Below the pieces are notes generated by a model. It saw only the letters and a program-made list of their open reading frames with translations, ran no database searches and was not told the DNA's origin. Shown piece by piece: positions 4,520 to 60,886 of a stretch of DNA of 64,000 nucleotides. Each line of letters begins with the position of its first letter. Positions within the stretch are counted from its first letter, which is position 1. This DNA comes from Lepidostoma basale (lineage: Eukaryota > Arthropoda > Insecta > Trichoptera > Lepidostomatidae), in NCBI GenBank assembly GCA_022606425.2, contig JAHDVF020000739.1, positions 372,001 to 436,000 of the forward strand, given 5' to 3'. The position numbers and the translations under genes are program-made.

Positions 4520-5310
4520 AACAAATGTTTTTTTTATTATTGAATGGTTGCAGTAAAATAGGCACTAAGTATCAAAAATGCAATTTTCAAATTAAGTATG
4601 CAGTTTCATTCTATATGCCAAGGCTACTAACTTTGATATTGCACCAAGTCCATATAGTGCACCGTTCTATTAAAAACACTAGTTTGAACATTGCGAATTC
4701 GATAAGTGCCATCTATGATTATTGAAAGGCACTAAGTACCACGCGCGAATAACGTCAGTTTGTACCAAAATGGCTGACCGAGAAGCGCGCGCATCGTGTG
4801 AGTTAGTTAAAGAATCCAAGAAAAAAAAAGTGTTTTAGTGAATATAGTGCAAATAAAAAAATAAAAACCCACGGACTGACATATACTTCAACATCACAAA
4901 ATATCATTCCAGCAAAAAAACCCACCAGGAAACGAAGTATGATTCATTTTATGTTTAATTCGTTAAGATCCCTTCAGCCCTGTGTCGCGGGCTAGTGATG
5001 TGCTATACTGGTGTTTTGCGCATCGAACAGAATATTCAAGTATTGTTTTGAAATACTTAATATTTGTTTTCTTATATGTATATCACACTGAGTGATGATT
5101 CTTATATAAATAATTATTGAATATTTTGTAGATTCACTTGTAATGTTTAAATAATTAATTAACTTCATAAAAATCAATTAGTTAAGAGTAAATGGGAGGG
5201 AAGTTAAGTAAGTAAAAGAAGTATAGCAGAGTCAGAATTATCCATGTTCGGTTCATATTTCATACCAAAAAGCCCTAGGCCTTTTTAATGGTTGGTCTTC
5301 TTTTTTTCAG

Positions 5311-6886
5311 ATCAACTGCAAATGCTACAAAAGTTGCAAAGAAATTAGTGAGAGCCAAAAAGTCACTTTATTTCATGAATTTTACAAGCTTGACAGTAAT
5401 GAAAAGCAAGGTTCATATCTGATGAGTTTATTAAACACGCTTGGGGTTAAACGGAGGAGAAACGGAAAGTACAATGAACCAAAAGAGAGCAAGCGCCAAT
5501 GTACAGTAAGCTACAGTTTACCGAATTGTTCAGGGAATTTACTCCCAGTATGCAAAAAAACTTTTGCTACAGTTTTTGACATTAAACAAAAAAAAAATCA
5601 TGGCCTTATTCAACGGGTAAAGAATGGGGACTTAACTTACATCGAAAAAAGAGGTAATAAAAACAGAGAGCGTAAATTTGGTCCACAGCTCGAAAATAAA
5701 ATAAAGGAACATATAAACACATTCCCACGGCAAGAATCTCACTATGGTAGGGCTCATTCGCATAAAGAATAGTCCTGATTTGAACATGAATCGTTTGTTC
5801 AAGGTTTTTCAATGTCTGCATCCTGATAGCATTGTAACTTATAAAATTTACAGGGACACTTTCAGGAAAAATTTCAAGAATGTTCAATTCGGCCGTAAAC
5901 GAGTCGACACCTGTTCGACTTGTGATCTGTTAAGCACCCAAATTCGAGCTAACGTGTCAAATAAAAGTGAACTGAGCTTAAAGCTTCGTCTCCATCAAGC
6001 TCGAGCTAACAAAGCATTGGATACGATGAAAAATGACACAATTTCTTCACAGAGACCGAATAGTGACACATGCACAGCCACAATGGATCTGCAACAAGTG
6101 CTTGTGACACCCACATTAACGCATACTCAGATATATTACAGTCGTCAGCTGTCTAATTTTAACCTGGGCGTCTACATTTGTGATTTCAACGATGCCTACA
6201 TGTGCCTTTGGCATGAAGGTATTACAGGCAGGGGAGGAAATGAGATTGCTTCATGCATTGCCAAAGTGTTCAGTCAAGGACTTACACACAAAAAGAAATT
6301 GGTCATGTGGAGCGATAATTGCGCTGGCCAAAATAAAAATCGCATGATAATTCTTCTGTGGATTTATCTGATTCAGCTCGGGGTATTTGAAGAAATTCAA
6401 CAAAAAATTTTGATCACAGGGCACTCTTTTTTGAGCTGTAATAGAGACTTCGCCCTCATAGAAAAAAGAAAACGTGTTTGCAGTCCTATGGTTCTTGCTG
6501 ATTTGGCAGAAATGATAAAAGAATCAAAGGAAAAACCATTTCATGTTATTGAAATGAACAATGGAGATTTTTTAAATTTTCATGAAGCCGCAAATAAGAT
6601 CATCAATACTGAGAAGATGAGTATATCCAAAGCACAATGGATAAAAATCAACAAAATGAGCTTCATAAATTCAGAGTCAAAACAACGTTAAGCATCTTAG
6701 AACCATGGAGAGTAATAAATCTATTGAAAAGGAATAAAACTTCAGAAGATTTAAAAAGTCTTGTGATCCCACAACTAAACTGCTCCTCCAAGATCTCAAG
6801 CGCAAAAAAAGGACTTACTGCAGATGGTACCGTACTTACGGAAAGAAGAACACCGAGAATTTTACCAACAACTTTGTCAACTCTAA
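5311..6886 (+). pseudogene. Transposase-like pseudogene (DxxxGQN family), frameshifted
   Basis: Homologous along its length to the intact 687-aa protein at 47441-49584. It begins just after a strong 3' splice site (pyrimidine tract and CAG ending at 5310) with a Cys-rich start (INCKCYKSC). It then has IKEHINTFPRQESHY, a CxxC knuckle (DTCSTCDLL), DLQQVL, the core SDNCAGQNKN, ITGHSFLSCNRDFALIEK and VIEMNNGDF. The frame is broken near 5740 (frame 1 to 2), near 6680 (2 to 1) and near 6790 (1 to 2). The C-terminal part (QKKDLLQMVPYL...) then ends at TAA 6884-6886. The 5' exon was not found in a compatible phase. It is inactive as written. The family resembles domains annotated as DUF7869 in many arthropod proteins of unknown function; that name is from memory. 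Confidence 0.8.
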
Positions 6887-7129
6887 TTATTAACGTTTGT
6901 ATGTTTTGTGAAAAAAATGTCAACCGAAAAGGGGTAATAAGGTTTTTTATATATTTTTTGTATGGTAAAATGTTGAATATTTTATTTTAACTATGTGCGA
7001 GTATTGCAAGAGTAGGGGTTCAGTTTTAAATTAAATTTACCCCACACATAATTTTTTACCAGTAAATGCTTAAACATCGTTTTTTATGTCGAGATTAGTT
7101 TTTGAATTACGAATAAATCTTTTGAGTTG

Positions 7130-7545
7130 TTTTGCGTAATGTGCTATTGTATCGTTTTATCCGATTTGTATATCTCTTTTATATCATTTGTTTGTTTGTT
7201 TTTTCTTTGGCTCTTGCTATTGTCTTAGTATACCTTGTCTTATTATACCTATTTGAATTGAATTGTGAATTGTTTTTTCTTCATGTAATGCTATTGTATC
7301 GTTTTTTTAAGATTTGTACATCTCTTTTTTTATCATACTTGATTTGTTTGTTTGTTTTTTCTTTGTCTCTTGCTATTGTCTTAGTATACCTTGTCTTATT
7401 ATACCTATTTGAATTGAATTGTGAGTGGTTTTTTCTTCATGTAATGCTAGTGTATCGTTTTTTTAAGATTTGTACATCTCTTTTTTTATCATATTTGGTT
7501 TATTTGTTTGTTTTTTCTTTGTCTCATGCTATTGTCTTATTATAC
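7130..7545 (+). repeat. Three-unit tandem repeat, ~150-156 bp
   Basis: Units start at TAATGTGCTATTG (7138), TAATGCTATTG (7286) and TAATGCTAGTG (7442). Each contains TTGTTTGTTTTTTCTTTG and TATACCTATTTGAATTG stretches. The second spacing is 156 bases, a multiple of three, so an apparent 185-codon hydrophobic frame runs through. That frame looks like a by-product of the repeat. Confidence 0.8.
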
Positions 7546-8690
7546 CTGATTTGTAAATATTCGGGCGATCTACGATTAAAGCCAACTACACTTGTCTACA
7601 ACTACTACCTCCCTACACCCGTATATCAAAACGTTTGCTTTATGTACACCCGTGACATCGTGTTCAAAGAGACGAATTTTCAGTCGTGATTTAAACACAT
7701 TTGTCAATAAAAAAATATGTTTCATAAATGAGTTTTATTTAAAAATATAGACCCATGTTTGGAAAGCACTGGCGGTGTATCGAAGCCGCGGCGCAATCAT
7801 CCAATGCGTGACCATGCCGGTAGCAAGTTCATACTTGTTTATAATATTTGTATGAAGCGACTGAGGTCCTAAAAACCCTGCTTCGGAACACGCGTAATTG
7901 TTTGATACTTCGGGTGAAGAACGTAATATGTTAATGGAACTGTTTGATTGGCCTACATGGTATAAGATAAAGTCTTACGGTGTGGTTAGGCTAATTATAC
8001 AAGTACTCGTATTTAAATATTAAGTTGTAATTTTATATGTAAAAAAATTGTACGCGAACGGAAATGACCTGAGATGATTCCGAGAATTTCTGGAACGTTT
8101 AGTTAGCGGAGGGACAAGAAGAGGGTGAAACAAAATCATTAACATAAAATTTTCGGCTCAGAAAAAAATGTCATGAACACGAGGATCATTAACCATTTAT
8201 CATAAGTTTGAGTTTATCATAAATAACTGAATAATGATAATAAAAATATACAAAACGTTAACAAGAGATTATTTATTAATATATTTAAATAATACCTTTT
8301 TGGTTTTGAACGAAGCCGGCACATCACTAGTGATGTTTGATATTTAACCCTTAACGTACCGTGTTCAAAACAAAACGCTCGCTCCCATGTGGTAAATTCA
8401 GTTTACCGCTAACTTTATCTAAATATCAAGCATATGACTCGATGAATCAAAATTTAATTTATGTCATCTTGTAGGGAATTTCATTAGGAATAGTTCGATA
8501 TCTATAACATACATTGAAAATTATTTGAAAAACATATTATTATTAATTTTTTTCTGGAACCATGCGATTTCTGATATGGAATGCGTCACAGCATACGAGA
8601 CGAGCAACTGGACACCAAGTATAAACTTGTCTCGCGCCGCGGCCGGCGGGGCGAGACTTTACGTATGATAAAGGCACCTAGGCAAAATGT

Positions 8691-18005: not shown

Positions 18006-18772
18006 GCCATCACGCCATTTCCCCGCAGGGGTAGGCAGAGAGAATGGACCACCACACACACTTCTCTAGCTTCATCCACATTCACATAAAAATGTAGCAT
18101 ATAGTTATGAAATACATGACTATTTGACGAGTGGTCGTGATAGATTCCGGCTCCGAAGATCCAGACTTGAAAGTACAGAGAAAGGTGTTTTTTATAGAGG
18201 ATTCAAATTATTTATCGAACTGCCAAATGAGGTAAGAGATGCCGGTTCTTTTGCGATCTTTCGTCGAAAATGCTTTAAATATGTTGTAAGTACCGATGTT
18301 TAAGGTTTTTGTTGTTTTTTTCATTTGTGTTTTTTTTATATTATTAATTGTTTATAAAATGTTGTTTTAGAAGTTGTAAAATGTTTTTGTAATTTTTATA
18401 ACTTTATTAAATAATATTGTACTTTAATGTAAAATAAGTAAACTAAATATAATACTTGATTAAATAATAAATTAAATTGAATTCATATACGCACGTCGAT
18501 TCTTCCGACTTCTTACATGACTAACTTTTAAAATTTGATTAATTTGATCATGCCATGTTTTCCTCGGTCTACTTCGACTGCGTACCCATTTACATCGTAA
18601 ACGTATACTTTCTTAACCATTCTTTTTCCATCCATGCGCTTCGTATGTCCAAGCCAACACAGCGATCCTTCAATAATTTTATTCATAATACCTTCTTCCA
18701 CTCTACATTCCTTTCTTATATCAGCATTTGAAATTCTGTCGTACATCGTTCTACTACACATACTACAACTAA
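18006..18772 (-). mobile_element. Family-A LINE split by another LINE
   Basis: The 3' part is 18006-18093 (CATCACGCCATTTCCCCGCAGG, lacking its tail). The rest resumes at 18485 and reads to the MCGRTMYDRISNADIRKEC-equivalent region (18772). The 18094-18484 insert belongs to a different LINE. Confidence 0.82.
18100..18484 (+). mobile_element. Non-LTR retrotransposon 3' end (family I), inserted in a family-A copy
   Basis: Plus-strand reading LESTEKGVFYRGFKLFIELP, then EVRDAGSFAIFRRKCFKYVV and a stop near 18303. This resembles the last residues of I/CR1-type RT proteins. An AT-rich 3' UTR follows, ending AAATAATAAATTAAATTGAA. Confidence 0.65.
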
Positions 18773-40603: not shown

Positions 40604-41810
40604 TTAGGTCCTTACATATGAAATTGGCGTTTTGTATGGGAGGAACATAAAGTTGATTTTTTTAAATATAATATATTTATTTAATCAAAGTATGTACCAT
40701 TGCTATCTATGCACTTTTGCCATCTCATAAATCTATGAAGTTGGTTTGGACTGCCCCATTGGAGTTGAATTTTTTCCCTTGCAAAGAAGTTATCCAAATT
40801 TCGAAAAAAATAGTAATCTGTTGGGGCAAGGTCCGGAGAGTACGGTGGATGTCTTAGACATTCCAATTGAAGCTCTTCTAATTTGGTAGCCGTCTGTTGT
40901 GCAGTGTGTGGTCTAGCGTTATCATGAAGCAGCAGTGGTCTAGAGCGATTAACCAGCCTCGGTTGTTTAGCAGCTAGCTTTTCCATCATGGTTTGCAGTT
41001 GCTGACAATAGACATCTGCCGTAATCGTCTGGCCAGATTTAAGAAAGCTGTAGTGAACGACACCAGCACTAGTCCACCAAACGCTCACAAGTAACTTTTT
41101 TGGAGTCAATTTTCGCTTGGGGCATGGTTTGGCTGGTTCGGCAGGGTTCAGCCATTACGATGAGCGCTTCCGATTCATACAGGATCCACTTTTCATTATT
41201 TCATTATTGTGCCGGTTGAGTAATGCAACGCAGCAGTCAACGCGCGTTTGTTGATTTGCTTCACTCAATTCGTGAGGTACCCACCTTTCAAGCTTTTTCA
41301 CCTTTCCAATTTGCTTCAAGTGGATTAAAACAGTTTTATCACTAACACCGCAGCCTGCAGCTAACTCGGACGTGGTTTGCGATGGATCCGCTTCCACAAT
41401 AGCCTTCAATTCTTCATTATCAACTTTGGTCTCCGGCCGTCCACGGGGCTTGTTCTGCAGGTCGAAATTTCCAGAACGAAAACGTTGGAACCAAAAACGC
41501 ACTGTGTTTTCTTTTGCGGCACCGTCGCCATACACATCATTAATCCTTCGAGCCGTTTCTGCAGCACTGGTGCCACGGTGGAACTCGTACTCGTAAATAA
41601 CGCGATATTTCAAGTTTTCCATTTTGTAAACTGAGTGACGCAAAGAAAAAAACAATTGAGGAAAAAACAAATGAATTATAATTTTCGAAACACAAATACT
41701 TGAATAAATAGCTATATAATTTTGAATTTGGAATTCCTAACCAAAGAGAAGATATTTGAGATCAAAGTTGCCAGTACGGCAAAACGCCAATTTCATATGT
41801 AAGGACCTAA
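40604..41810 (-). mobile_element. Mariner transposon, 1207 bp, TA target
   Basis: Near-perfect inverted ends TTAGGTCCTTACATATGAAA...GGCGTTTTG, flanked by TA. It contains a SETMAR-type mariner transposase with deletions (40681-41622). The good end match suggests a fairly young but dead copy. Confidence 0.95.
40681..41622 (-). pseudogene. Mariner transposase, broken
   Basis: Starts MENLKYRVIYEYEFHRGTSA. The helix-turn-helix part includes TVRFWFQRFRSGNFDL, NKPRGRP and ELAAGCGVSDKTVLIHLKQIG. Near 41160 a deletion removes the segment with the first catalytic Asp and shifts the frame; only a KWILYE-like scrap remains. The rest reads LTPKKLLVSVWWTSAGVVHY, LLLHDNARPHTA and YSPDLAPTDYYFFRNLDNFF. The two Asp residues are 34 residues apart (DD34D). 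A second deletion follows DNFF before MRWQKCIDSNGTYFD and a stop at 40681. Inactive. Confidence 0.93.
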
Positions 41811-45547: not shown

Positions 45548-46444
45548 AATTTGGCGCTAAATTTAAAAATACATATCAATTTAAAACAATCCAACCCATT
45601 TATTTACTCTAATAGTACACTGTAAATGTAATGTCGATCTCCTACAGAAATTCTCTCCTGGTAAAAAGATCTATCCTAGAAATTGGCGCCGACTTTTGCC
45701 ACTTCCATAAATCATCCCGCCATTAATTTCATTCTGATTTTAAGTCTAGCATCGACCTCCTACAGGCATTATCTCCTGGTAGAAATAATCCCAGAACATA
45801 ATGTCGACTTTTGCCTCTTCGATCCAAAATAATTATGTTTTGGAGCCTAAATTTAAATTACAAATTACAACAACCTAGATTCATTTAAATTACAATCCCG
45901 CCAGTTAGTCGGCACAATGTAAAAGCATTATCGACCTCCTTACAGAAATCCTGTCCTGGTATAATCTAATTCCAGAAAGTATCGCCGACTTTGGCCACCT
46001 CGTAAAACCAACCCGGCCAATAATAATTAATTTTCATTCTGATTTTAAGAGTAACATGGACCTCCTACAAACATTCTCTCCCGGTAGAAACAAGTAATCC
46101 CAGAACAATGCCGACTTTCGCCACCGCAGTACAAAATAGTTGAATGTTTTTAGCGCTAAATTTAAAAACATTAATACGCAATTCCGCCACAGTACATTGT
46201 AAAAGATTGTCGACCTCCTTACAGAAATCCTTTCCTGGTATAATCTATGTCCAGAAAGTATCGCCGACTTTTGCCACCTCAACCACCCAATTTTAATTTC
46301 ATTCTGATTTTAAAGGTAACATCGACCTCCTACAAGCATTCTCTCCTGGTAGAAAGATCTAATCCCATCTGCTAAATTAAAAAATATTCATTTAATACAA
46401 TCCCGCCATTTAGATGGCACATTGTAAAAGCATTATCGACCTTC

Positions 46445-46765: not shown

Positions 46766-46953
46766 AAGAACAAGAACTTATCAATGAAAGCGAAAATGGC
46801 CGTTCACAATGGAGTTCTGGTACCACCCCTAATGTATGGAAGCGACGCATGGAACTGGTAGAAGAAGGTTGGGAGGAGAATACGAGTATATAGTACGTGT
46901 GATAAAACGTTCTACGACAACATTTCAAATGCTGTTATCAGGAAGGAATATAT
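46766..46953 (+). mobile_element. Family-A LINE piece hosting the transposon at 46954
   Basis: ACTTATCAATGAAAGCGAAAATGGC, CAATGGAGTTCTGGTACC and CATTTCAAATGCTGTTATCAGG follow the family and stop at the transposon. LINE homology beyond the right end is weak at best. Confidence 0.8.
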
Positions 46954-47440
46954 CGTCCCTTTAGAGGTAAAACTCACTAACCGCAATATTGGGCCAAAAC
47001 TACTTATGAATACCAATATTCATATTTTTTCAATCTCTATTCAGGAAAAAATCACTAAGTACATATTTTAATACGTTATTCATTATTGTTAAGTGGTAAA
47101 ACTCACGATTTGAGCATTTTCGTCAATTGCCTCCAAGTAAAACTCATTAAATCACTTAATTAGTTTTACCTGGCGACAAAAAATGCAAGCTTTCATTGTT
47201 GTTTCACTAAATGCCCGCTGGCGGCGCGGCGCTTTCGATGTATTGATGACACATTATCATACTTTTCGCGCAATTTGAGTTCAACGGTCATTGTGTTCCT
47301 TAATTTGTGTGATTTTTCATAGATAGAAGAGGTAGTTTATCTTTAAATCTTTTTATTTAGTGTTCCCTCTAGTGTAAGAATACAATTATCGTGTTCCATT
47401 AAAACTTCAGTGTTTATTATTTTAAAAATCATTTATTAAA

Positions 47441-47503
47441 ATGTTTCTCTCAAGAGGAAAGCAAATGTGTTATATGGTGCAAAATCAAGAAAATAATAAA
47501 AAG
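47441..47503 (+). CDS. Putative transposase of element 2, exon 1
   Basis: ATG in AAA-ATG context, 21 codons (MFLSRGKQMCYMVQNQENNKK), ending AAG|GTAAGG. The 80-base intron has a clear 3' site (TTTATTATTTCAG). Phase 0, so the frame runs straight into exon 2. An 80-base intron is ordinary for insects. Confidence 0.8.
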
Positions 47504-47583
47504 GTAAGGCCCACTTTTCAATAATAATCCTGACAATAGCGGGGTAATTAGTATCTCTAAAGAATGTATTTTTATTATTTCAG

Positions 47584-49584
47584 GAAGAAATTCAATCAAA
47601 GAATGTAAACCAACAACTTCCAGGTAGAACATCACCAAATTTGACAACAAGTAATGGTCTGCAACAATTAACTAGTGCTTATAACTATTCTGACTCCGAT
47701 TTTTCACCCTGTAATTCAGATGAAGAATTTGTACCTCATAATGAGAATGTTTCTGATGGGAGTGAGGTTCAGGATTTACAAAGTAAAAAAAAACGATGGT
47801 CGGGAAAAAATGAAGCAAAGTGGAAAGTTAATATTACCAAATCAAACAGATCTCAGTGCCTACCATATTTAAATAAAGCTAAACAATTATCTGCAAAGTT
47901 GCCAAAGACCATTAATTGTTCTTCTTGCCGCTATAAATGCACTTCTAACTTTACTGAACAGGAGCGAAAAGACCTGTGTTCTTTGTATTGGTCTCTTGTA
48001 GATTTCCGAAGTCAGAAAGATTTTATTTTAAAATATGTTAAATCAAGTGAGCCCAAAAGAAAATATGTACCACCAAATCATGCAAATGCTCGCAAAAATT
48101 CAAAAGCGTACTTTCTCCAAAATAGTAGAGGACAGTTTAGAGTATGTTCAACATTTTTTCAAAAAACGCTTTGCATATCGAATGGACCAATCAACACAGC
48201 AATGCTTTCAATGAGCACAACAGGTTGCTTTTCTGGATCTGACAAAAGGGGTAAGAGAGAACCCGGAAACAAAACCCCCATTGAAACATTCAACTTGGTA
48301 AAAGAACACATTGAATTATTCCCTTGTGTCGAATCACATTATGTCCGCCAAAAAACTTCACGTAAGTACCTTGATAGCAATTTATCAATATTAAAAATGT
48401 ACGACCTATACTTAACATTTTGTGGAGAAAGAAATGTAACCCCCGTCAGTGCCAACACGTACAGAAGAATATTTTGCGTGAATTATAATTATTCCTTTTT
48501 CAAACCAAAAAAAGACCAATGCCTAACATGCCATAAATACGAAAGTGCAAAAGGGGAAAAGAAAAATGAATTAGAGCAGGAATACTCCACACATATTATG
48601 AGCAAACAAGATTGCTATAAAGCAAAACAGGAAGATAAAGAGAGATCAATAAATGATAAACATTTTAAAACCGTAACATTTGATTTACAGAAAGTACTGC
48701 AAATACCGTCATCTAACCTTTCACAGTTTTATTACAGTAGAAAACTCTGTGTCTACAACTTGACGATTTATGAAGGTGACGGAGAAAATGCATATAGTTT
48801 CTTCTGGAACGAATTGAATGGAAAACGTGGCAGCAGCGAAATAGGCTCTATACTTTATAGATATATAAACATTTTGCCTTCCACTGTCACTGAGGTATCT
48901 TTATTTTCAGATACATGTGGAGGGCAAAATAGAAACCAGCATGTAGCTGCCATACTGCTACATGCTGTAACTACAAGTTCTACACTGCAAGTCATAGAAC
49001 ATAAATTTTTAGAGTCCGGGCATACCTACATGGAATGCGATTCGATGCACTCTGCTATTGAAAGCCAAAAGAAAAACAAATCAATTTTTTTGATGGATGA
49101 TTGGAAAGAAATTTTTCGGCAAGCCAGATCTAAACGTGGAAACAATAAGAAAAATGAATACAAAGTCATAGAGATGAAGTATGGAGATTTTTATAATCTA
49201 CAAGCATTAAGCTCGATTTTAATTAAAAATAGAACAACAGACGAAAAAGGGAGAAAAGTTCAATGGCTGAAAATTAAAAATTTAAAATACGAAAAAAGTT
49301 CTCCAGGAGTAATATTTTATAAGTATAGTCATACTGAACCATACAAAAAGATAATTATCTCTGGACGAGGGCGTCGTTCTCAATCGATACAACTTGTGAA
49401 AGCTTACGATAGTCTTTTGCCAATTTCAAAAAACAAAAAACAGGATCTATTAAAACTGTGCACCACGGGTAATATACCAGAGGAATTGCACTCTTGGTAT
49501 AAAAATTTACCATGCGCAGATACGACAATAGAACGAGCTCCGGAGCCAGCCGAGGACGAGGAAAGTGCTAATGAAGAAGATTAA
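47584..49584 (+). CDS. Putative transposase of element 2, exon 2
   Basis: With exon 1 it gives 687 residues. Features: an acidic N-terminus; Cys cluster C133/C136/C140 (INCSSCRYKC); VKEHIELFPCVESHY; a CxxC at 334/337 (DQCLTC); D388 in TFDLQKVL; D464 in SDTCGGQNRN; H501 and D507/E514 in SGHTYMECDSMHSAIE; VIEMKYGDF; an acidic tail. Three acidic positions in this order suggest an RNase-H-like DDE/D nuclease (inference). The frameshifted homologue at 5311 conserves all these blocks. AATAAA follows at 49629. The position between matching inverted ends makes it the likely transposase. No function is claimed beyond that. Confidence 0.85.
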   Translation, partial: EEIQSKNVNQQLPGRTSPNLTTSNGLQQLTSAYNYSDSDFSPCNSDEEFVPHNENVSDGSEVQDLQSKKKRWSGKNEAKWKVNITKSNRSQCLPYLNKAKQLSAKLPKTINCSSCRYKCTSNFTEQERKDLCSLYWSLVDFRSQKDFILKYVKSSEPKRKYVPPNHANARKNSKAYFLQNSRGQFRVCSTFFQKTLCISNGPINTAMLSMSTTGCFSGSDKRGKREPGNKTPIETFNLVKEHIELFPCVESHYVRQKTSRKYLDSNLSILKMYDLYLTFCGERNVTPVSANTYRRIFCVNYNYSFFKPKKDQCLTCHKYESAKGEKKNELEQEYSTHIMSKQDCYKAKQEDKERSINDKHFKTVTFDLQKVLQIPSSNLSQFYYSRKLCVYNLTIYEGDGENAYSFFWNELNGKRGSSEIGSILYRYINILPSTVTEVSLFSDTCGGQNRNQHVAAILLHAVTTSSTLQVIEHKFLESGHTYMECDSMHSAIESQKKNKSIFLMDDWKEIFRQARSKRGNNKKNEYKVIEMKYGDFYNLQALSSILIKNRTTDEKGRKVQWLKIKNLKYEKSSPGVIFYKYSHTEPYKKIIISGRGRRSQSIQLVKAYDSLLPISKNKKQDLLKLCTTGNIPEELHSWYKNLPCADTTIERAPEPAEDEESANEED

Positions 49585-49954
49585 AAATTTGGTTTTTATT
49601 TAATTGCGTACTTAATATGTTTATAACAAATAAATTGGAATTTAGTAATATAAAATGATAGTATTTTTGCATATCCTACACTAGAAAAGCTATTATGTAT
49701 AATATGTTACCATTTTTTCCTGTCCAGGTAAAAATCATTAAGTGCAAAAAACCTTATATTTAATATAAAATACAAACATACCCCAAATATTTTTATAAAA
49801 TGTTATGTGTTATTTAATTGTTTACAATACTGCAAAAGAAATTTATCGGAATTACATGTATATTTTTTAATATCGCGTGTTGAATGTTTAAACCTCATTA
49901 TCTCAAAACTACTCCGATGTCACTTAGTGAGTTTTACCTCTAAAGGGACGATAT

Positions 49955-50341: not shown

Positions 50342-51330
50342 TCGTCTGATATACTTCTCTCGATTCCTCTGCATCCATTCATCATCGAGTCATGCACGCA
50401 CATCGATTTCTCCGACTCTGTAAGTCACCGAAATTAAATATTTGATTGATTTGATCTGGCCGCGTTTTCCTCGGCCTTCCTCTATGTCTAGCTCCTTTCA
50501 CATCGTTTATATAGGTACACTTTCTTGACCATTCTGTAATCATTCATTCTTTCCATGTGTCCAATCCATCTTAACAACCCTTTCATTATTTTGTTCATAA
50601 CACTTTCATTCGCATCGCATTCACTTTTTATATTTGTATTTGACACTCTATCATATACAGATTTACCACATTTCGTCTTAGATATCTCATTTCTACTGCA
50701 TTTAATAATACTTTCATATTTCTTAAGCCAGTTCCATGCTTCACTTCCATATATAATGATCGGCACAAGAACACCATTGTGCACTGCCATTTTAGCTTTA
50801 TTTGATAGGTTTTTTTTTGCAATGACAACTTTAAGTACACCATTTACTCGGTTGCCTGCCCCAACCCTTCTTTCAATATCCACTCTCCCATCTTTTGTAA
50901 AAATACTTCCGAAATAAACAAGTTCATCCACTTGTTCCAGATTTTCACCGTTCACACTAATGTTGCAGACTGTCATGGTTACTTTTTTTCTTTGGACTTA
51001 TTCACATTCATCACCAAATCGTATCGCTTGCATACTTTATACATACTAGACACCAGGGCTTGTAGTTTATCCTCGTTTTCTGCAAGTAGCACAGCGTCGT
51101 CCGCATACAACAGTCAGCTTACTGACACACCGTTCATTTTTGCACCTGCATCCAACCCTTTCAGCTCTTTATAGAGTCCATATATAGATTCAACAACCGT
51201 GGAGACATTACACACCCCTGTTTGACTACTTTATTGATATCAAACCAAGCTGTAATATCTCCATTTACTCTGAAACTAAGTAGCAATATTTCCCACAACT
51301 TAACTCTATCTATCTGGCCCATAATGAGTT
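50342..51330 (-). mobile_element. Family-A LINE, includes RT active site
   Basis: Lacks the tail. The minus frame (50976-50488) reads MTVCNISVNGENLEQVDELV, then YFGSIFTKDGRVDIERR. Further upstream GCGTCGTCCGCATACAACAG encodes the reverse of LLYADDAV, with one frame lesion. Extends to the GVKQG/LWE-equivalent part near 51330. Confidence 0.87.
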
Positions 51331-52778: not shown

Positions 52779-53325
52779 ATTGGGTTGATGCAAAAGTTAT
52801 GGCCGTTTTTTACATATACAATTAAACATTTTTTTTTAGATTTGTATTATTAATTTAATCAATTATTTAATTTCCATCCGTTCTTATAACCTTCTTTCAT
52901 CTTTCTATCAACTTATTAATACCATTAGTGTAAAATTCCGTGGATTTTGATGCGAAAAATGAGTAAGGAATGTTTTTACCTGCTCAATTGTATCAAATTT
53001 TAATAATTTAAAACATTTTGCAGTGATCGGAATGAATGAAAATCGGAAGGAGTAAGATCTGAAAAATACGGTGGATGCTTAATAACATCCCAATTCAACT
53101 CATTTAGCTTGTGTTGGGTCATCATTGCCACATGTGGTCGCGCGTTGTCGTGATGAAACACTACCCCTTTTCTGTTTACCAATTCTGGTCTATCCTTTTG
53201 AAGGGCGATGTTCAATTTGGATAATTGCTGACAATATCGTTCTGCTGTAATTGTCGGATTGCGTTCCAAGAGTTTAAAATACACAATACCCTTACAATCC
53301 CACCAAACACAAAGCATAACTTTTT
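52779..53325 (-). mobile_element. Mariner fragment with transposase C-terminal half
   Basis: Left end ATTGGGTTGATGCAAAAGTT resembles mariner termini. The minus frame reads MLCVWWDCKGIVYFKLLERN, then TITAERYCQQL, VVFHHDNARPHVA and HPPYFSDLTPSDFHSF. The second and third Asp are 34 residues apart. The 5' half is lost; truncated at 53325. Confidence 0.87.
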
Positions 53326-54429
53326 TTATGGATTTCGGCCTTCGAAGTTATTAATGGGGCTTGTCCAGGTATAGCCCAATGCAATTGGGCTTGCAAAATG
53401 TAAAAGGGTCTTTGTCACACTTATGTATTTTTGGCTTGTAATCATATAGCTAGGTGCATATATACCACAAGATATCTTAATTTTTAGTATGGATTTGAAG
53501 CCGGGCTTTATCACTCTGAAGTATGTTACTATTCGATGTGTCGCGAACTTCATTTCTATTGTCAGAATATTATCTGTCATTTACGTTTGGTGCAGAAATG
53601 TTATGAAAAGAAAGATTATACGAGAATATGAGTTTGGTAAAGCAGAAAACTATTTTTTGTATAGATTTAAAAAGGGCCTAAAATAGTATTTAAAATAAAT
53701 TAATTTAGAAAGATAAAATTCTTTTAATCCGAAAAGAAAATATTTTCGTGACCCTCTACTAACATTATAACAGAAAAAAATCGGATGGGCTTGCCTCACT
53801 GGTTGACCACAGGCACGCCACTGCTGACCGGTAATGAGTTTTTCTGAACTCAACAAAATGATAAGAATTTAATGACAAATCATAGAATATGAAATTACAA
53901 TAAATTTTTACTTAGAAACTACTACAACAAAAATAAATATTAAGCAATTTAGAGGAGAAAAGACAATTGAGATTATGTTAAGATAAATGAGAAGCACAAT
54001 TTTTTTTTAATTTCACGTAAAATTTTCTTTTTTTGTATTGTTAAAATACACATAAATTGCACCCCGATATTAAAAGATTGACAAGCAACAGAAGAGTGAT
54101 GAAGTCATGGAATATTTAAAATGTAAATTACACCATTATTAAAACTGTATATTCTTTAATCAAATTTGTTTTACCACTGCTTAATTAATTTCTTTTTAAA
54201 AAAAGCGATAAGGAGTAAGTCTATAAAAAGGCACAATAGGAAGGTGTTTTAATTATTGTTGGTATTTAATTTTAAAAATTGTGTCAGATAATGGCGAATC
54301 TAGCTCGACATAGAAGCTGGTGTAAGAAATACTATGTCGAGGCACACTCGATATTTAAGTGGTAAGGGTTAACATAATAATAGTTTATTAATATGAAGAA
54401 GGAACCAGGTTGAATTTAATTGAAACCTT
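53326..54429. other. 1.1 kb without a recognised feature
   Basis: 53340-53580 has a short open reading (minus) with no family resemblance. Otherwise AT-rich. Confidence 0.4.
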
Positions 54430-55960: not shown

Positions 55961-56834
55961 ACCGTCAAGCAAGATTGGCGTCGAGTACCTTTTCCTCACA
56001 ACAATTTTTACTTACGATAAGAATAAATATTCGATTTACAACATATGTTTACAACAAAAACATATAAAACAATTATCACCGTACTCATTAACCTGTTTGT
56101 ATATATTTTTGATAAACTTAAGACACATAAACAATCTTCTTATTTCTACTCGACTCTTCCCGTTTCTTGTGGTCGACTTTCTATATCATTTGGCGCCGGG
56201 TGTTTGATGCGAAATGATTTGATGTATGTGATTGGTTTATAGTTTTACGGTCGATTGCCACCTGCACCAAGGTCGTGATCTTCGTGAAATATTTGAGCGT
56301 CGCCGTTAACCATCACAGGTTCAGACGACGCATTTCTAAATAACCATTCTGACCCGAATGTCCATTACATTAACGAAATTCTACTTTGAATGACCAGCCT
56401 TTTTGGTTTGTAGAAGATTTTATTTGTCCTCCTACCCCTGATCCCTCATCTTAGGGGTGTACTCTCTAGGGTTAAGGCTCCCCCGAGAATTGAGGCATGA
56501 ACAATAGAAAAAAAGTTATAATATTATATTATAGTTATAAATCTGATTTAAAATGTTTCTCTAGAATAAGTTACGTTTTGAGGGAGGCATAAAACTATTG
56601 TATTTATAATTTGTTTTTTAATCTTTCTTTTTATATATTATATAATCCCTTAAGACTCCATTTTCTTCTTCATTTGTTTTCAATGGCGAGCCAGTCTCAT
56701 ACGGATGGCTCTAAAAGGCCCTTATCACTCATATTTCTTTTGTCATTATGGTGGAAGTTTTACCCGACTTTGTATCATTTCCAAGAGTACCTGTAGCACC
56801 TACCGTAGAGGTACCTTCCTTGCCCTTATAGTCC
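55961..56834. other. No gene recognised
   Basis: AT-rich, with a short C-rich patch at 56430-56490. Confidence 0.45.
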
Positions 56835-58140
56835 ATGAACATAAAATTTAATCAAGAACCTGTAACTGAAAGAGTATGGGATGTGCAAGGTGCTTTTATG
56901 ACCGGAAGAGGTTGTATGGATCAGATTTTTGCACTTCGAACGCTTGCGGAGAAGTTTATGGCCAAAAACCGTAAGCTTTTCTGTGCGTTTGTCGATTTGC
57001 AAAAAGCCTATGATCGAGTGAACAGAGAAAAACTGTGGTCAATCTTGTCCGAATACGGAGTGAGCACAAAACTGATACGGGCGGTTGCTTCTCTCTACGA
57101 AGGGAGCACTGCCAGTGTTAGGGTAAATGGGGACATCACGCCCTGGTTTGATATCACGAAGGGTGTTAAGCAGGGCTGCGTGATGTCCCCTTGGTTGTTC
57201 AATCTGTATATGGACAAGTGTATGAAAGAACTTAAAGGTATAAATGCTGGTGCTAAGATGAGTGATCTGTCTGTAAACTGTCTGCTTTACGCGGACGACG
57301 CCGTTCTCGTTGCGGATAGTGCGGACGAATTACAAGTCTTGGTGTCGAGAATGTATGAGGTATGCAAGTCGAACGATTTAATGATGAATGTCGGAAAGTC
57401 AAAGGTGTTAGTTTTTGAAAGGGAGGAGCAAATGACAGTTTGTAATATAAGTGTAAATGAAGAGAACTTGGAACAGGTGAGCGAATTTGTGTATTTAGGT
57501 AGCATGTTCACAGCGGATGGCCGAACGGACAGTGATATTGAAAGAAGGGTTGGTGCGGGTAACAAAGTGAATGGAGCTTTAAAAGTAGTTATTGGAAACA
57601 AGAATTTATCAATGAAAGCGAAAATGGCTGTTCACAATGGAGTTCTGGTTCCAACCCTTATGTATGGAAGCGAAGCATGGAACTGGCAGAAGAAAGATGA
57701 GAGAAGAATAAATGCGGTAGAGATGAGGTCCCTAAGACGTATGTGCGGTAGAACGATGTACGACAGAATCTCAAATGCTGATATTAGGAAAGAGTGTAGA
57801 GCGAAAGAAGGTATTATGAACAAAATTATGAAAGGTTCGCTTCGTTGGTTCGGACATATGGAGCGCATGGGTGAAGAAAGAATGGTTAAAAAAGTATACG
57901 TTAACAATGTAAATGGAATAAGGAGTCGAGGTAGACCGAGGAAAACATGGCATGACCAAATTAATCAAATATTAAAAGTTGGTCATGTCAGAAGCCGGAA
58001 GAATCGACGTGCGTGTATGACTCGATGTATGAATGTGGAGGAAGCTAGAGAGGTGTGCCAGGATAGAGTAGTGTGGCGGTCCATTCTCTCTGCCTACCCC
58101 TGCGGGGAAACGGCGTGATGGTTTTGTTTGTTTGTTGTTG
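56835..58140 (+). mobile_element. Family-A LINE, best copy, open RT domain
   Basis: 5'-truncated; LINE sequence starts near 56860. A 427-codon frame stays open to 58118. RT landmarks: GAFMTGRGCMDQIF; CAFVDLQKAYDRV with the first catalytic Asp; GVKQGCVMSPWLFNLYMD; LLYADDAVLVAD (YADD at residues 152-155). The thumb and C-terminal region follow: YLGSMFTADGR, PTLMYGSEAWNWQKKDE, RSLRRMCGRTMYDRISN and GRPRKTWHDQINQ. No endonuclease is present. Ends GGCGTGATGG with (TTTG)/(TTG) repeats. RTE/Daphne-like; the clade name is tentative. Confidence 0.92.
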
Positions 58141-60074: not shown

Positions 60075-60886
60075 TTGGTGTCGAGAATGTATGAGGTATG
60101 CAAGTCGAACGATTTAATGATGAATGTCGGAAAGTCAAAGGTGTGAGTTTTTGAAAGGGAAGAGCAAATGACAGTTTGTAATATAAGTGTAAATGAAGAG
60201 AACTTGGAACAGGTGAGCGAATTTGTGTATTTAGGTAGCATGTTCACAGCGGATGGCCGAACGGACAGTGATATTGAAAGAAGGGTTGGTGTGGGTAACA
60301 AAGTGAATGGAGCTTTAAAAGTAGTTATTGGAAACAAGAATTTATCAATGAAAGCGAAAATGGCCGTTCACAATGGAGTTCTGGTTCCAACCCTTATGTA
60401 TGGAAGCGAAGCATGGAACTGGCAGAAGAAAGATGAGAGCAGAATAAATGCGGTAGAGATGAGGTCCTTAAGACGTATGTGTGGTAGAACGATGTACGAC
60501 AGAATCTCAAATGCTGATATTAGGAAGGAGTGTAGAGCGAAAGAAGGTATTATGAACAAAATTATGAAAGGTTCGCTTCGTTGGTTCGGACATATGGAGC
60601 GCATGGGTGAAGAAAGAATGGTTAAAAAAGTATACGTTAACAATGTAAATGGAGTAAGGAGTCGAGGTAGACCGAGGAAAACATGGCATGACCAAATTAA
60701 TCAAATTTTAAAAGTTGGTCATGTTGGTCATGTCAGAAGCCGGAAGAATCGACGTGCGTGTATGACTCGATGTATGAATGTGGAGAAATCTAGAGAGGTG
60801 TGCCAGGATAGAGTAGTGTGGCGGTCCATTCTCTCTGCCTACCCCTGCGGGGAAACGGCGTGATGGTTTGTTGTTGTTGTTGTATT
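60075..60886 (+). mobile_element. Family-A LINE, near-identical to the 57.3-58.1 kb copy
   Basis: Starts inside the RT thumb (CTTGGTGTCGAGAATGTATG). 231-codon frame from MTVCNISVNEENLEQ to the end. Differences from the other copy are few, including a duplicated GTTGGTCAT and a (TTG)n tail. Confidence 0.92.

Follow-up and report, generated by a model that had tools for sequence, protein, structure and literature searches.

Within a 64,000-nucleotide stretch of the genome of the trichopteran insect Lepidostoma basale (positions 372,001 to 436,000 of contig JAHDVF020000739.1, assembly GCA_022606425.2; hereinafter the window, in whose coordinates all positions are given), we identified a DNA transposon that measures 2,997 bp from outer end to outer end (46954-49950). 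Its terminal inverted repeats enclose a two-exon gene for a transposase of the Pfam DUF7869 (PF25273) family, which is the arrangement seen in DDE/D cut-and-paste transposons, and that it belongs to this broad class is close to certain. It is also probably a complete, recently inserted and autonomous element of about 3 kb, for which Sola2 is the most likely assignment.

Terminal repeats and gene structure

The 27-bp ends, CGTCCCTTTAGAGGTAAAACTCACTAA, lie in inverted orientation at 46954-46980 (forward strand) and 49924-49950 (reverse strand) without a single mismatch, as described in a first-pass annotation of the sequence. Even with up to three mismatches allowed, these are the only two sites of the end sequence in the window, and two such sites were found in none of 100 dinucleotide-preserving shuffles. 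Each end is bordered on its outside by ATAT (46950-46953 and 49951-49954), a putative target-site duplication. Since ATAT is palindromic, the uninterrupted perfect inverted repeat grows to 31 bp when the flanks are included, and a single copy fits either a 4-bp ATAT duplication with a CGTCCC end or a 2-bp AT duplication with the longer end ATCGTCCC. The former is the natural reading; the first-pass annotation had proposed it without flagging the palindrome. The G+C fraction of the element is 0.33 as against 0.37 in the window.

The inner portion of the ends, GTAAAAMTCAYTAA, is found again within the element, with perfect copies on the forward strand at 47137-47150 and 49728-49741, and copies with one mismatch at 47045-47058 (forward strand) and 47156-47169 (reverse strand), the latter facing the copy at 47137-47150. 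At up to one mismatch all six window sites fall inside the element, two of them being the ends themselves, and at up to two mismatches 8 of the 20 window sites do so; the motif was picked after inspecting the sequence and these counts are hence descriptive. The repeats resemble the transposase-binding-site arrays of other transposons and, by that analogy, may serve as binding sites here.

The gene between the ends lies on the forward strand and comprises an exon of 21 codons starting with an ATG at 47441 (47441-47503), an 80-bp GT...AG intron with its donor at 47504 (47504-47583) and a second exon of 666 codons plus stop (47584-49584, stop at 49582-49584), which bears the DUF7869 transposase. 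Together these give the 687 codons, uninterrupted by any internal stop, that had been annotated earlier. An AATAAA at 49629-49634 (forward strand), 45 bases past the stop, is a possible polyadenylation signal. The short first exon gets some backing from relatives with an M..RGK near their starts: its initial M-x-x-(x)-RGK has counterparts in the relatives P0006 and P0018 and, internally, in P0004. An intact two-exon gene with a possible polyadenylation signal might also be expected of a host gene, possibly a domesticated one, that happens to lie between chance inverted repeats. We consider this highly improbable: perfect 27-bp ends are not a product of chance, the GTAAAAMTCAYTAA repeats at up to one mismatch are confined in the window to the element, and the protein belongs to a large multi-member family, of which a decayed copy from another subfamily, B, is present in the same window.

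The DUF7869 family and its conserved residues

The 687-residue protein matches DUF7869 with 28.8 bits against a gathering cut-off of 26. A protein search recovered 498 relatives at E <= 0.001, with DUF7869 present in 117 of the 120 listed, and a profile-based second search gave 511 matches, the 120 listed being mostly the same proteins; in a Pfam scan at E <= 0.1, all 45 scanned members of the A1 set matched the domain. The second and shorter subfamily B comprises 152 proteins at E <= 0.001, of which 120 were listed. All the organisms named among the relatives in these three listings are insects or spiders. NCBIfam yielded nothing convincing in the six proteins scanned, and an Rfam scan returned no matches. 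One DUF7869 protein, P0025 from Holotrichia oblita, is publicly named RNA polymerase subunit RPABC2, apparently spuriously.

We examined residue conservation in an alignment of 134 subfamily A and 120 subfamily B proteins, counting only the rows that span the given positions. Three ordered acidic motifs and cysteine pairs had been noticed at first pass; the acidic residues are located in the translation as described, the cysteine pairs are C133-x2-C136 and C334-x2-C337, and all belong to sets that are strongly conserved. D388 (48682-48684), D464 (48910-48912), D507 (49039-49041) and E514 (49060-49062) occur together in 131 of 133 A rows and 109 of 116 B rows. Across the eight most frequent spacing patterns in each of the two subfamilies, the distance from D388 to D464 is 75-77 residues, with 41-43 residues from D464 to D507 and 48-50 from D464 to E514. 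Subfamily A has a DxxH motif (H510 in 131/133), the counterpart of which in subfamily B is DRDF (F in 117/119). The pair C334-x2-C337 forms, together with H263-x9-H273, an HHCC module before the core (48307-48531, forward strand), complete in 131 of 133 A rows and 93 of 97 B rows. The other pair, C133-x2-C136, opens an N-terminal cysteine cluster, C133-x2-C136-x3-C140-x12-C153 (47917-47979, forward strand), a putative zinc-binding and DNA-binding element. All four cysteines are found in 106 of 117 A rows; most B rows do not extend into this region, and of the 23 that span the first three cysteines, 22 have them.

Predicted fold and likeness to integrases

The structures predicted for both subfamilies contain an RNase-H-like core in which D388 and D464 lie where expected, at the ends of strands 1 and 4, and in which D507 and E514 are both on the helix bearing the third acid. 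When the models were structurally re-aligned, all 50 rows shown for each subfamily were integrases or DDE transposases; the transposon families among the 50 were mariner, Sleeping Beauty and IstA, and the lack of Ginger, hAT and P rows excludes none of these. Together with the conservation, this delimits a predicted catalytic core at 48664-49158 (forward strand) and supports a transposase with an RNase-H-like core and three ordered acidic positions. With the ends and the gene, it bears out the earlier call of an intact DNA transposon encoding a transposase. The Pfam entry for DUF7869 gives no function; by our assignment the domain falls in the latter half of the transposase core. The mariner transposases Mos1 and SETMAR show about 7-11% identity, and mariners, unlike the present element, duplicate TA and have neither the cysteine cluster nor the HHCC module.

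The HHCC module may be integrase-like. In 4 of the 50 A rows and 12 of the 50 B rows shown, the alignment opens in the helix that bears H263 (model positions 230-232 in A and 120-125 in B) and, on the integrase side, where the N-terminal domain begins. The multi-domain HHCC rows have an rmsd (root-mean-square deviation) of 12.8-14 Å, indicating that the orientation of the domains differs and that the likeness is suggestive only. An RNase-H-like core preceded by such a module is what retroviral integrases and Ginger-type transposases have, and integrases provide the best structural rows. These features would accommodate membership in one of the other known superfamilies that combine short duplications with integrase-like traits, namely Ginger1/2, IS3EU, IS481EU, AcademX or Chapaev; the duplications given in the extracted text of PMC10045372 are 4 bp for Ginger1, 4-5 bp for Ginger2 and 3-4 bp for AcademX. 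We nevertheless regard such a membership as improbable. None of the 45 scanned members matches the Pfam integrase core model (rve) at E <= 0.1 among the 17 families matched, and integrase-derived families usually do match such models. In the same 45 members the Pfam integrase zinc models had no match, and a single weak RNase_H match was seen (E 0.056). In these Pfam scans and in profile searches of the PDB, no sequence-level match to integrases or Ginger-type transposases was seen, and the DUF7869 proteins differ from these in the H-H spacing of 9, in the far downstream position of the C-x2-C, and in their added N-terminal and C-terminal parts.

Probable affinity to Sola2

The first-pass annotation had pointed to Sola, on account of its 4-bp duplications, beside an unrecognised branch or an undescribed family. 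The Sola lead fits best, and we hold Sola2 membership to be probable. As summarised in the extracts of PMC10741241, Sola elements have DDD transposases, 4-bp duplications, sizes of mostly 2-9 kb and ends of 11-1124 bp; the present element with its 27-bp ends falls within both ranges, and its D388, D464 and D507 would provide the triad. Among dictyostelid Sola2 elements, the ends are 12-13 bp long in Dictyostelium fasciculatum, with AWWT duplications, and 21 bp long in Polysphondylium pallidum, with duplications of ATAT, AAAT and ATTT (both from passages of PMC3627910). The element resembles Sola2 in the ATAT on both sides, which would fit a 4-bp AT-rich duplication of the AWWT type, in its short inverted ends, in its single large transposase with three acidic positions, and in the size range. 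It differs in the length of its ends from the 12-21 bp of the dictyostelid elements, and it has no Fanzor1 gene. Sola elements are further known from moths, even jumping into baculovirus genomes, according to passages of PMC4735498 and PMC8634313.

Several observations weigh against this reading. The likeness to Sola2 is drawn from published descriptions and not from transposase sequence, and the length of the duplication is ambiguous between 4 and 2 bp, as it derives from one palindromic copy. The third catalytic acid may be D507 or E514, which are equally conserved, so that DDD is not proven over DDE. In the extracted portion of an aphid mobilome survey (PMC9783078), Sola is listed with 508 elements and 0 in the next column, apparently that of complete copies, as against DUF7869 clusters of 10-31 members in other aphids, which is a mild misfit. 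Foldseek alone gave no match at E <= 0.001 among 434 from the PDB or 264 from a viral library, its top rows (TnsB, a terminase nuclease, Argonaute and UvrC) all having E > 0.001. When the PDB was searched by sequence, the 687-residue protein had no match at E <= 1 and neither subfamily profile had one at E <= 10. Only one copy of the element was seen. A viral contig collection held no relative by protein, end sequence, alignment or core motif, and a genome contig collection none by alignment or end sequence.

The principal competing explanation is a cut-and-paste transposon of an undescribed superfamily, defined by DUF7869 transposases with the HHCC module and a D-75/77-D-41/43-D (or -48/50-E) signature; we regard this as possible but rather unlikely. 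In its favor, the function of DUF7869 is still unknown in Pfam, the HHCC module is nearly invariant, neither "DUF7869" nor "PF25273" was found in the literature searched (the founding Sola papers lay outside that search), and literature searches on CGTCCC with inverted repeats and transposase gave nothing relevant. On the other side, Sola2 already takes in AWWT 4-bp duplications in eukaryotes including metazoa, and a family so common in insects is unlikely to have been overlooked by the Repbase curators. At the level of the whole family, we would likewise view only tentatively the proposal that DUF7869 proteins, with an integrase-like HHCC module, a DDD/E core and a C-terminal domain, are transposases representing a eukaryotic superfamily yet to be described or an unrecognised Sola2 lineage; the novelty raised at first pass is not established and is less likely than Sola2.

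Insertion site and other elements in the window

The probable Sola2 element adjoins on its left side a remnant of a non-LTR (long terminal repeat) retrotransposon at 46769-46952. The left flank through 46952 matches retrotransposon copies elsewhere in the window, for example over 62 bases with 81% identity at 18704-18765. In an empty-site comparison within the window, the right flank did not clearly carry on this match. With its ends, flanks, gene and catalytic residues all intact, the element looks, from the sequence, like a recent insertion that is possibly still mobile.

The broken homologue reported at first pass is real and split over two frames (5227-6691, forward strand). It is "nearby" only in lying in the same window, about 41 kb away, and belongs to the other subfamily, B. 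Its tblastn matches to the 687-residue protein (5311-5751 and 5780-6673) are about 27-28% identical, and it is 83% identical to P0135 over 90% of the query. It has N at the position of D507, where D is found in 117 of 119 other B rows, which fits decay. Among the 25 longest of 77 inverted pairs, none was recognised as its ends.

Other mobile elements are also found in the window. A mariner-type transposase spans two open frames on the reverse strand at 40681-41736 (HTH_48, the Mos1 HTH, or helix-turn-helix, at 41155-41736; Transposase_1 at 40681-41154), and another mariner-type fragment lies at 53000-53347 on the same strand (Transposase_1, E 1.7e-20). A non-LTR-like retrotransposon frame of 428 residues with a reverse transcriptase (RVT_1, E 6.6e-29) occupies 56832-58118 on the forward strand, and its fragments are many in the window, such as those at 60147-60863, 50488-50997 and 46769-46952. 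To the left of the transposon there is a 76-bp direct repeat (46027-46102 and 46292-46367, 87% identical, 265 bp apart), and 7126-7689 on the forward strand is a hydrophobic open frame of 187 residues with internally repeated segments.

Proposed mechanism and implications

Transposition might proceed as follows. The N-terminal cysteine cluster and the HHCC module would bind DNA, with the transposase recognising the 27-bp ends and probably the subterminal GTAAAAMTCAYTAA repeats, and pairing the two ends. Excision would then use two metal ions coordinated by D388, D464 and either D507 or E514, and the freed 3' ends would be joined with a short stagger to a target that is presumably AT-rich. Repair of the stagger would yield the ATAT duplication.

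Transposons of this type abound in insects, and the element provides an intact copy of one that can be tested; in databases their proteins are labelled "uncharacterized", "DUF7869" or, once, an RNA polymerase subunit. Recognising DUF7869 as a transposase core would correct the annotation of many arthropod genomes. The HHCC module suggests, in concrete structural terms, how these enzymes might bind their ends. Should the family after all prove to be an integrase-like undescribed superfamily or an unrecognised Sola2 lineage, it would tie eukaryotic transposons other than Ginger and Maverick to the integrases.
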